From Gigantopelta aegis (lineage: Eukaryota > Mollusca > Gastropoda > Neomphalida > Peltospiridae): a DNA stretch of 64,000 nt. A program made the position numbers and the translations under genes. Positions 6,090 through 64,000 of this stretch are shown here, in pieces (the stretch's first letter is position 1; each line of letters begins with the position of its first letter). Where the stretch lies: assembly GCF_016097555.1 (NCBI RefSeq), contig NC_054707.1:48315766-48379765 (forward strand), in the 5' to 3' direction. The notes under the pieces were generated by a model. It did not search any database and was not told where the DNA came from. It saw only the letters and a program-made list of their open reading frames with translations.

Positions 6090-19413
<13,324 letters not shown>

Positions 19414-39787: not shown

Positions 39788-58272
<18,485 letters not shown>

Positions 58273-58299
<27 letters not shown>

Positions 58300-61200
58300 C
58301 TACAAAGGAAAACCTTCAGTCAGGTACACCATGGAGCCACTGCTGACACCACGGACAGGACCCTACAAAGGAAAACCTTCAGTCAGGTACATCATGGAGC
58401 CACTGCTGACACCACGTACAGGACCCTACAAAGGAAAACCTTCAGTCAGGTACCCCATGGAGACACTGCTGACACCACGTACAGGACCCTACAAAGGAAA
58501 ACCTTCTGTCAGGTACACCATGGAGACACTGCTGACACCACGTACAGGACCCTACAAAGGAAAACCTTCAGTCAGGTACACCATGGAGCCACTGCTGACA
58601 CCACGGACAGGACCCTACAAAGGAAAACCTTCAGTCAGGTACACCATGGAGCCACTGCTGACACCACGTACAGGACCCTACAAAGGAAAACCTTCAGTCA
58701 GGTACACCATGGAGCTACTGCTGACACCACGTACAGGACCCTACAAAGGAAAACCTTCAGTTAGCATGGAGACACTGCTGACACCACGTACAGGACCCTA
58801 CAAAGGAAAACCTTCAGTTAGGTACATCATGGAGGCACTGCTGACACCACGTACAGGACCATACAAAGGAAAACCTTCAGTCAGGTACATCATGGAGCCA
58901 CTGCTGACACCATGTACAGGACCCTACAAAGGAACACCTTCAGTTAGCATGGAGGCACTGCTGACACCACGTACAGGACCCTACAAAGGAAAACCTTCAG
59001 TTAGCATGGAGACACTGCTGACACCACGCACAGGACCCTACAAAGGAAAACCTTCAGTTAGGTACACCATGGAGGCATTGCTGACACCACGTACAGGACC
59101 CTACAAAGGAAAACCTTCAGTCAGGTACACCATGGAGACACTGCTGACACCACGTACAGGACCCTACAAAGGAAAACCTTCTGTCAGGTACACCATGGAG
59201 ACACTGCTGACACCTCGTACAGGACCCTACAAAGGAAAACCTTCAGTCAGGTACACCATGGAGCCACTGCTGACACCACGGACAGGACCCTACAAAGGAA
59301 AACCTTCAGTCAGGTACACCATGGAGCCACTGCTGACACCACGTACAGGACCCTACAAAGGAAAACCTTCAGTCAGGTACATCATGGAGCCACTGCTGAC
59401 ACCACGTACAGGACCCTACAAAGGAAAACCTTCAGTTAGCATGGAGACACTGCTGACACCACGTACAGGACCCTACAAAGGAAAACCTTCAGTCAGGTAC
59501 ATCATGGAGCCACTGCTGACACCACGTACAGGACCCTACAAAGGAAAACCTTCAGTCAGGTACACCATGGAGCCACTGCTGACACCACGGACAGGACCCT
59601 ACAAAGGAAAACCTTCAGTCAGGTACATCATGGAGCCACTGCTGACACCACGTACAGGACCCTACAAAGGAAAACCTTCAGTCAGGTACACCATGGAGCC
59701 ACTGCTGACACCACGTACAGGACCCTACAAAGGAAAACCTTCTGTCAGGTACACCATGGAGACACTGCTGACACCACGTACAGGACCCTACAAAGGAAAA
59801 CCTTCAGTCAGGTACACCATGGAGCCACTGCTGACACCACGGACAGGACCCTACAAAGGAAAACCTTCAGTCAGGTACACCATGGAGCCACTGCTGACAC
59901 CACGTACAGGACCCTACAAAGGAAAACCTTCAGTCAGGTACACCATGGAGCCACTGCTGACACCACGTACAGGACCCTACAAAGGAAAACCTTCAGTTAG
60001 CATGGAGACACTGCTGACACCACGTACAGGACCCTACAAAGGAAAACCTTCAGTTAGGTACATCATGGAGTCACTGCTGACACCACGTACAGGACCCTAC
60101 AAAGGAAAACCTTCAGTCAGGTACATCATGGAGCCACTGCTGACACCATGTACAGGACCCTACAAAGGAACACCTTCAGTTAGCATGGAGGCACTGCTGA
60201 CACCACGTACAGGACCCTACAAAGGAAAACCTTCAGTTAGCATGGAGACACTGCTGACACCACACACAGGACCCTACAAAGGAAAACCTTCAGTTAGGTA
60301 CACCATGGAGGCATTGCTGACACCACGTACAGGACCCTACAAAGGAAAACCTTCAGTCAGGTACACCATGGAGACACTGCTGACACCACGTACAGGACCC
60401 TACAAAGGAAAACCTTCTGTCAGGTACACCATGGAGACACTGCTGACACCTCGTACAGGACCCTACAAAGGAAAATCTTCAGTCAGGTACACCATGGAGC
60501 CACTGCTGACACCACGGACAGGACCCTACAAAGGAAAACCTTCAGTCAGGTACACCATGGAGCCACTGCTGACACCACGTACAGGACCCTACAAAGGAAA
60601 ACCTTCAGTCAGGTACACCATGGAGCCACTGCTGACACCACGTACAGGACCCTACAAAGGAAAACCTTCAGTCAGGTACACCATGGAGCCACTGCTGACA
60701 CCACGTACAGGACCCTACAAAGGAAAACCTTCAGTCAGGTACACCATGGAGCCACTGCTGACACCACGTACAGGACCCTACAAAGGAAAACCTTCAGTCA
60801 GGTACATCATGGAGCCACTGCTGACACCACGTACAGGACCCTACAAAGGAAAACCTTCAGTTAGCATGGAGACACTGCTGACACCACGTACAGGACCCTA
60901 CAAAGGAAAACCTTCAGTCAGGTACACCATGGAGGCATTGCTGACATCACGTACAGGACCCTGCAAAGGAAAACCTTCAGTCAGGTACACCATGGAGCCA
61001 CTGCTGACACCACGTACAGGACCCTACAAAGGAAAACCTTCAGTCAGGTACACCATGGAGCCACTGCTGACACCACGTACAGGACCCTACAAAGGAAAAC
61101 CTTCAGTCAGGTACACCATGGAGACACTGCAGACACCACGTACAGGACCCTACAAAGGAAAACCTTCAGTCAGGTACACCATGGAGACACTGCTGACACC

Positions 61201-64000
61201 ACGTACAGGACCCTACAAAGGAAAACCTTCAGTCAGGTACATCATGGAGCCACTGCTGACACCACGTACAGGACCCTACAAAGGAAAACCTTCAGTTAGC
61301 ATGGAGACACTGCTGACACCACGTACAGGACCCTACAAAGGAAAACCTTCAGTCAGGTACACCATGGAGCCACTGCTGACACCACGAACAGGACCCTACA
61401 AAGGAAAACCTTCATTCAGGTACACCATGGAGCCTCTGCTGACACCACGGACAGGACCCTACAAAGGAAAACCTTCAGTCAGGTACATCATGGAGCCACT
61501 GCTGACACCACGTACAGGACCCTACAAAGGAAAACCTTCAGTTAGCATGGAGACACTGCTGACACCACGTACAGGACCCTACAAAGGAAAACCTTCAGTT
61601 AGGTACATCATGGAGGCACTGCTGACACCACGTACAGGACCCTACAAAGGAAAACCTTCAGTCAGGTACATCATGGAGCCACTGCTGACACCATGTACAG
61701 GACCCTACAAAGGAACACCTTCAGTTAGCATGGAGGCACTGCTGACACCACGTACAGGACCCTACAAAGGAAAACCTTCAGTTAGCATGGAGACACTGCT
61801 GACACCACGCACAGGACCCTACAAAGGAAAACCTTCAGTTAGGTACACCATGGAAGCATTGCTGACACCACGTACAGGACCCTACAAAGGAAAACCTTCA
61901 GTCAGGTACACCATGGAGACACTGCTGACACCACGTACAGGACCCTACAAAGGAAAACCTTCTGTCAGGTACACCATGGAGACACTGCTGACACCTCGTA
62001 CAGGACCCTACAAAGGAAAACCTTCAGTCAGGTACACCATGGAGCCACTGCTGACACCACGGACAGGACCCTACAAAGGAAAACCTTCAGTCAGGTACAC
62101 CATGGAGCCACTGCTCACACCACGTACAGGACCCTACAAAGGAAAACCTTCAGTCAGGTACACCATGGAGCCACTGCTGACACCACGTACAGGACCCTAC
62201 AAAGGAAAACCTTCAGTCAGGTACACCATGGAGCCACTGCTGACACCACGGACAGGACCCTACAAAGGAAAACCTTCAGTCAGGTACATCATGGAGCCAC
62301 TGCTGACACCACGTACAGGACCCTACAAAGGAAAACCTTCAGTCAGGTACACCATGGAGCCACTTCTGACACCACGTACAGGACCCTACAAAGGAAAACC
62401 TTCAGTCAGGTACACCATGGAGACACTGCTGACACCACGTACAGGACCCTACAAAGGAAAACCTTCAGTCAGGTACACCATGGAGCCACTGCTGACACCA
62501 CGTACAGGACCCTACAAAGGAAAACCTTCAGTTAGCATGGAGGCACTGCTGACACCACGTACAGGACCCTACAAAGGAAAACCTTCAGTTAGCATGGAGA
62601 CACTGCTGACACCACGCACAGGACCCTACAAAGGAAAACCTTCAGTTAGGTACACCATGGAGGCATTGCTGACACCACGTACAGGATCCCACAAAGGAAT
62701 ATCTTCAGTTAGGTACATCATGGAGCCACTGCTGACACCACGTACAGGACCCTACAAAGGAAAACCTTCAGTCAGGTACATCATGGAGCCACTGCTGACA
62801 CCACGTACAGGACCCTACAAAGGAAAACCTTCAGTTAGCATGGAGACACTGCTGACACCACGTACAGGACCCTACAAAGGAAAACCTTCAGTCAGGTACA
62901 CCATGGAGGCATTGCTGACACCACGTACAGGACCCTACAAAGGAAAACCTTCAGTCAGGTACACCATGGAGCCACTGCTGACACCACGTACAGGACCCTA
63001 CAAAGGAAAACCTTCAGTTAGCATGGAGACACTGCTGACACCACGTACAGGACCCTACAAAGGAAAACCTTCAGTTAGGTACACCATGGAGGCATTGCTG
63101 ACACCACGTACAGGACCCCACAAAGGAAAACCTTCAGTTAGCATGGCGACATTGCTGACACCACGTACAGGACCCTACAAAGGAAAACCTTCAGTCAGGT
63201 ACACCATGGAGCCACTGCTGACACCACGGACAGGACCCTACAAAGGAAAACCTTCAGTCAGGTACACCATGGAGCCACTGCTGACACCACGGACAGGACC
63301 CTACAAAGGAAAACCTTCAGTCAGGTACATCATGGAGCCACTGCTGACACCACGTACAGGACCCTACAAAGGAAAACCTTCAGTCAGGTACACCATGGAG
63401 CCACTTCTGACACCACGTACAGGACCCTACAAAGGAAAACCTTCAGTCAGGTACACCATGGAGACACTGCTGACACCACGTACAGGACCCTACAAAGGAA
63501 AACCTTCAGTCAGGTACACCATGGAGCCACTGCTGACACCACGTACACCACCCTACAAAGGAAAACCTTCAGTTAGCATGGAGGCACTGCTGACACCACG
63601 TACAGGACCCTACAAAGGAAAACCTTCAGTTAGGTACACCATGGAGGCATTGCTGACACCACGTACAGGATCCCACAAAGGAAAACCTTCAGTTAGGTAC
63701 ATCATGGAGCCACTGCTGACACCACGTACAGGACCCTACAAAGGAAAACCTTCAGTTAGCATGGAGACATTGCTGACACCACGTACAGGACCCTACAAAG
63801 GAAAACCTTCAGTCAGGTACACCATGGAGCCACTGCTGACACCACGGACAGGACCCTACAAAGGAAAACCTTCAGTCAGGTACACCATGGAGCCACTGCT
63901 GACACCACGGACAGGACCCTACAAAGGAAAACCTTCAGTCAGGTACATCATGGAGCCACTGCTGACACCACGTACAGGACCCTACAAAGGAAAACCTTCA
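58273..64000 (-). repeat. Minisatellite of exon-2 splice acceptors, about 90 copies, runs off the window
   Basis: Tandem units are 63 bases, with a 57-base variant. Read on the gene's strand, each unit has CTGAC or CTAAC, then GGTTTTCCTTTGTAG, then GGTCCTGTACGTGGTG and TCAGCAGTGGC, which is the exon 2 acceptor and its first 27 or so coding bases. The unit nearest the gene (58273-58299) merges into the true exon. Variant strings recur in the same order, for instance units with CACCATGTAC near 58910, 60146 and 61692, showing higher-order duplication. Both unit lengths are multiples of three. Confidence 0.97.

Follow-up and report, generated by a model that had tools for sequence, protein, structure and literature searches.

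Exon 2 of an SLC28 gene in the vent snail Gigantopelta aegis lies between tandem arrays of its own splice sites

Exon 2 of gene B and the arrays on either side of it

The window analysed here is a 64,000-nucleotide stretch (C9:48315766-48379765) of the 1.15-Gb assembly of the deep-sea vent snail Gigantopelta aegis, and its minus strand carries gene B, an SLC28 (CNT) nucleoside-transporter gene whose exon 2 is boxed between copies of its own acceptor and copies of its own donor. When exons 2-9 of gene B were joined, they gave a single open frame of 457 codons that matched, with 100% identity over its full length, part of an annotated 633-amino acid SLC28A3-like protein of the same species (P0001), and this protein scored above the Pfam cut-off for each of the domains Nucleos_tra2_N, Gate and Nucleos_tra2_C, as expected of an SLC28/CNT transporter. 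The first-pass annotation of this stretch had assigned the exon at 58155-58299 to a real coding gene and had supposed that the last of many similar acceptors is the one used. Both statements hold, since the frame of exons 2-9 is that of P0001, and the annotated protein is spliced at the true exon 2 site and uses the innermost acceptor-donor pair. The exon and its two arrays are placed as follows (a slash marks the exon-intron junction, here and below):

58155..58299, minus strand: true exon 2 of gene B, 145 nt, with acceptor TTTGTAG/GGTCCTG before 58299 and donor CCAGG/GTGAGT after 58155
58300..64000, minus strand: acceptor array of gene B, 92 extra 3' splice-site copies with junctions from 63981 to 58362, 88 of them with AG
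57101..58161, minus strand: donor array of gene B, 41-bp units, ~26 copies, 77% matches, reaching 7 nt inside exon 2, its first unit being the true donor

The acceptor array itself is beyond doubt. Tandem Repeats Finder (TRF) reported it at 58273-64000 with a period of 63, 92.7 copies and 92% matches, and we placed 93 junctions on the minus strand, from 63981 to 58299, corresponding to 92 copies plus the true site, with spacings of 63 bp (73 cases) or 57 bp (19 cases). The count thus bears out the earlier description of about 90 near-identical tandem copies of the gene's own acceptor. Each unit contains, in order, 27 nt of the start of exon 2, a spacer, CTGAC or CTAAC, a pyrimidine tract and TTTGTAG, so that the 63-bp form, with 27 exon and 36 intron nt, spans the exon-intron boundary. 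Among the 92 copies, the AG dinucleotide was kept in 88, the branch motif (CTGAC or CTAAC) in 90 and both in 86, and the window edge truncates one of the two copies in which the branch motif is missing. Identity to the true acceptor extended over the last 18 intron bases in 83 of the 92 copies and over positions -24 to +6 in 52, and 27 copies were identical to the true exon start over all 27 exon bases.

The prediction that use of an array copy would truncate the protein also stood, as reading directly onward in the frame of exon 2 meets a stop codon by the 14th codon in all 92 copies. We considered these stops as a sign of design and dismissed the idea, because every unit derives from a single sequence. 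With a weight matrix built from 39 acceptors of the SLC28 gene family, the true sites of genes B and C included, 77 of the 91 scored copies equalled or exceeded the true site, which itself lay at the 56th percentile; site strength therefore cannot account for choice of the last acceptor. Per-position differences among the 73 units of the 63-bp form amounted to 1.7% in the intron part and 4.0% in the exon part, but these rates are dominated by a few variable positions, probably reflecting variants spread by array copying, and we draw nothing from them about selection. A search of the snail's own genome with the acceptor unit returned at least 58 matches, a lower bound because very common words were skipped, all of them within the arrays of gene B and its paralogue gene C.

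The acceptor array halts at a run of exactly 5000 N that starts at 64001 (L009 4001-9000), and 92 copies is therefore a minimum. Runs of exactly 5000 (L042/L036) and 2500 N (L044) were found elsewhere in the assembly, so the run at 64001 is most likely an assembly gap. Because two of the three runs border immediately on tandem repeats, such repeats are a probable cause of breaks in the assembly. Exon 1 of gene B, which should encode the first 164 residues of P0001, was not found within 41 kb past the N run (31 kb, then 10 kb) and is located inside the run or farther away.

The donor array had been overlooked in the first-pass annotation, though it adjoins the same exon 2. Its unit, for example ATAGCTAGG/GTGAGTCCTACAG (41 bp), repeats the donor context of exon 2, most commonly as AGG/GTGAGT, together with ~7 exon bases. 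GT was present in 20 of 27 rows, counting the true site and one out-of-phase row, and the losses were all in the exon-distal half, one of the seven being the out-of-phase match. All 92 acceptor copies lie upstream of exon 2 and all donor copies downstream, with the true exon edge kept. Recursive splicing by way of the donor array was also considered, and the array's sequence gave no support for it.

The remaining exons of gene B, each identified from the joined frame and its identity to P0001, are:

53257-53063, minus strand: exon 3
50599-50438, minus strand: exon 4
48464-48339, minus strand: exon 5
47390-47260, minus strand: exon 6
45179-45011, minus strand: exon 7
42317-42054, minus strand: exon 8
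40778-40598, minus strand: exon 9

Intron 7 holds a further array of 50 bp x 18 (window 43208-44124), whose minus-strand unit contains GTAAGT and which adjoins no exon.

Paralogous genes and other exon boundaries

Six SLC28 loci (PF07662) were found in the genome. Gene C lies ~110 kb from gene B, with gene A between them, and exon 2 of gene C carries both arrays, with 28 acceptor junctions and 18 donor units when the true sites are included. AG was present in all 27 acceptor copies of gene C, and GT in 15 of its 18 donor units, the true site counted, the losses being units 15 to 17. The acceptor array of gene C has non-array sequence on both sides.

Acceptor units differed from one another nearly equally within gene B (3.05), within gene C (3.00) and between the two genes (3.17). 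Fourfold sites in exon 2 were unchanged between genes B and C (0 of 30), compared with 6 of 29 changed in exon 4 and 9 of 16 in exon 5, in counts that cover exons 2, 4, 5 and 6 only. These comparisons make it probable that genes B and C have exchanged exon 2 and its arrays. The overall pattern fits, rather than proves, patchy gene exchange, with the arrays perhaps helping.

Boundary-spanning arrays were then sought at other exons of the six genes. The 1.5-kb flank on the intron side of each boundary was searched for copies of the 48-nt junction sequence, and a boundary was counted if the score was at least 21 and the copy spanned the junction, a cut-off chosen after the scores were known. A shuffled-flank control reached a maximum of 16, and a mismatched-probe control reached 48, a value we ascribed to neighboring exons within the 1.5-kb flanks, without a case-by-case check. 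Junction-spanning copies were found at 9 of the 78 boundaries that could be placed (exons of genes D, E and F were covered in part), at acceptors as well as donors, with units of 36 to 151 bp; three further boundaries scoring 16 to 17 were left out of the count. Four of the nine are the two sides of exon 2 in genes B and C. Another is the acceptor of gene C exon 4 (151 bp x 1.9), and the array at the acceptor of gene D exon 3 (L035 2824-3014; 56 bp x 3.4, 98%) has a unit of 8 intron and 48 exon nt; as this unit is mostly exon, the pyrimidine tract of the true acceptor itself looks exon-derived. At the donor of gene E exon 9 (L016 1679-2637), a 36-bp unit repeats the donor context ATATCAG/GTAACTC 26.6 times. 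The donor array of gene C exon 5 (L033 7521-8164; 58 bp x 11, 97% matches) has a unit of 54 nt of exon 5 plus GTAT, and is made almost wholly of coding sequence. The acceptor of gene A exon 4, the ninth boundary, was a weak case with a score of 24. The features of gene A, and the array in gene B that shares its repeat, are:

12071..12215, plus strand: exon 2 of gene A, homologous to exon 2 of gene B but free of both arrays; its boundaries scored 14 (not spanning) and 10
14825..15657, plus strand: 41-bp repeat before gene A exon 4, in two TRF rows; the same repeat as before gene B exon 4, with weak junction-spanning similarity (score 24)
50614..51176, minus strand: 41-bp array before gene B exon 4, stopping 14 nt before the acceptor of that exon; repeat common to gene A exon 4

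A junction-spanning copy of the gene B exon 4 acceptor was not found in the array at 50614..51176 (boundary score 10). Gene A also has a 116-bp array with a different sequence, which stops at 11923, ~150 bp upstream of exon 2.

Outside SLC28, one of 13 flank tests on eight open frames, which were hand-picked mostly by length and whose ends are not proven junctions, scored above 20 (L039, 31), followed by 18 and 14. The high score belongs to a NACHT-domain frame (C3:20.0 Mb, L039 1511-1857) whose end runs into an array of 79 bp x 4.4, in which the final bases of the frame and a GTAAGA are repeated, a probable boundary-spanning case with a putative donor. An LRR match just under the cut-off near the end of this frame means that the array might instead be a decayed coding repeat.

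Choice of the innermost sites and origin of the arrays

If strength does not distinguish the true acceptor from its copies, the availability of a partner site might. Among the 871 GTs in the gene B acceptor array, two scored as high as the weakest of the 39 real donors (5.8), the better of them at 6.7 against 11.8 for the true donor, and none of the 264 in the gene C acceptor array did so. Conversely, the weakest real acceptor was reached by 3 of 99 AGs in the donor array of gene B and by 0 of 72 in that of gene C, and the lower quartile by none. The notion that acceptor copies act as self-contained mini-exons is thus unsupported. The sole strong donor nearby, scoring 11.8, belongs to exon 2 itself; the true acceptor is 145 nt away from it, and each successive copy lies 63 or 57 nt farther. 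In exon definition, an exon is recognised as a pair of nearby sites. The idea is general knowledge and is mentioned in PMC10809524.

We think it likely that both arrays arose from duplications spanning the exon boundaries, grew by unequal exchange, have been tolerated through exon definition, and are a neutral by-product without function. A short tandem duplication over the end of the intron and the start of exon 2 would have seeded the acceptor array, and a second one, over a few final bases of the exon and the start of the next intron, the donor array. We infer that unequal exchange then amplified both duplications, with the arrays extending outward from the exon. The edge of exon 2 falls within the homogenising arrays. 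If the spliceosome pairs sites across the exon, it would settle on the innermost acceptor and donor, leaving the remaining units orphaned and the protein intact. The arrays would be tolerated because almost every acceptor copy is without a usable donor, and almost every donor copy without an acceptor of the usual strength, and pairing across the exon would leave both free to grow outward without harm. With ninety-odd natural copies, most of them equal to the real acceptor, the array lends itself to studying how the spliceosome decides between identical sites, and splicing of the annotated protein at the last one points to cross-exon pairing over site strength.

Several observations weigh against this account. 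The scoring matrices rest on 39 sites each, with the judged sites among them. For gene C, at least the isoforms X2 and X3 are annotated. X2 is spliced at the true acceptor of exon 2 and omits exon 5, which bears the donor array of 58 bp x 11. X3 has its first codon, an ATG, inside exon 2, as would follow from use of an array copy or of an intronic start, so that both isoforms hint that arrays may disturb splicing. Exon 6 shows the same closeness between genes B and C as exon 2 does, with change at 1 of 21 fourfold sites, and exchange, though likely, is therefore not unique to the array region. Finally, of the 32 minisatellites located in SLC28 genes, 8 are in contact with an exon boundary, versus 3.2 expected at random (13 of 3000 random placements reach 8), and when the exon 2 arrays of gene C are removed, 6 of 30 are so versus 3.1 expected (184 of 3000 placements). 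Contact with boundaries above the random level suggests that something more than mere tolerance of arrays placed at random may be involved.

These same counts bear on the possibility that arrays are born by chance anywhere in the introns of a repeat-rich genome, those spanning an edge merely being noticed and the boundary having nothing special about it. This proposal is compatible with the origin by boundary-spanning duplication that we prefer, which leaves the start point of the duplications unspecified, and we regard it as a serious contender of rather less than even probability. It agrees with the 24 of 32 arrays that touch no exon, and with the weakness of the excess once gene C's exon 2 arrays are set aside, but eight contacts were matched in very few random placements. 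A preference of arrays for exon edges is less sure than the array itself. At the other extreme, splice-junction minisatellites might be a genome-wide feature of this snail, preferentially born at both kinds of exon edge, able to embed an exon between two arrays, enabling paralogues, through homogenisation, to exchange an entire exon together with its splice sites, and yielding skipping or new isoforms where a copy gains a partner; we find this extended proposal doubtful.

A functional explanation, in which the arrays are a splicing device whose surplus sites titrate or slow pairing, so that array length sets exon inclusion and the amount of truncated, unstable transcripts, appears unlikely to us. 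It could draw on the retention of AG and the branch motif in nearly all acceptor copies of gene B, on the difference of isoforms X2 and X3 at array-bearing exons, and on the pattern of GT in the donor units, kept near the exon and lost far from it. However, array homogenisation alone yields high identity among units with no need of selection, gene A encodes the same kind of protein without exon 2 arrays, and the listing for the annotated gene B protein gives no isoform label. The first-pass annotation had offered two options, exon 2 inclusion tuned by array length and a neutral by-product, of which the second gives the best fit. We give very little credence to the idea that the array was made or inflated when noisy long reads were assembled, even though the gene B array runs into the N run and PMC7895826 describes PacBio reads, Canu correction and wtdbg2 assembly, since gene C has the same acceptor array flanked on both sides by non-array sequence, and short arrays of like design occur at other exons. 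The copy number in gene B may still be wrong.

Comparison with known systems

Introns have reportedly been born from tandem arrays of exonic repeats, a model associated with Zhuo et al. 2007 and Rogers. The snail arrays resemble such introns in being tandem repeats that contain splice sites, and might likewise be raw material for intron change, but the introns of Zhuo et al. 2007 arise new inside exons, whereas the snail intron already existed and had its edges multiplied.

Splice sites within tandem repeats are also a feature of genes such as UBC, in which, according to PMC10809524, dual-specific sites with an AGGT core serve as both 5' and 3' sites and the repeats are coding. In the snail, the two kinds of site occupy separate arrays, and by sequence the units of gene B are without the AGGT core as a rule, acceptor units having TAGGGT and donor units AGGGT; donor units with AAGGT occur at 57994 and 57508, and the unit at gene D exon 3 contains CAGGT.

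The closest counterparts are the 'mirages' of amphioxus, minisatellites that span exon-intron boundaries in Adh3, the globin genes BflGb6 and BflGb9, TnC and PGBD5, as described in PMC3087553 and PMC3902484, on which the following comparison rests. The BflGb6 mirage lies at an acceptor and comprises 6 units in one haplotype and 3 in another, BflGb9 has a duplicate at a donor, the Adh3 units measure 10-72 bp and are somatically unstable, and splicing is reportedly undisturbed by mirages. The first-pass annotation had known of no described minisatellite of this design, a statement that these amphioxus examples do not support. In the mirage passages of the two papers, we met no account of mirages outside amphioxus, and reports elsewhere may exist.

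Like mirages, the snail arrays have boundary-spanning units at an acceptor or a donor, many but not all of which keep AG or GT, and place an exon part in the intron; they thus have the structure that defines a mirage, the donor side less fully, as its repeat includes only ~7 exon nt. As to neutrality for splicing, the annotated protein of gene B is intact, but gene C has the isoforms X2 and X3. Unlike the amphioxus examples, the snail arrays, described here from one assembly, occur in a gastropod, with at least 92 extra copies against the 6 and 3 units of BflGb6. They differ from the cases in the two papers also in that acceptor and donor of one exon are both arrayed and in that two paralogues share the arrangement. 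Mirages in a mollusc suggest that the phenomenon described in amphioxus may be more widely spread and overlooked, perhaps hidden by repeat masking. As far as we have seen, four features are new: the mollusc host, the number of copies, the layout on both sides of one exon and its occurrence in two paralogues. The arrays around exon 2 represent a known but obscure kind of structure in a new place and in an extreme form.

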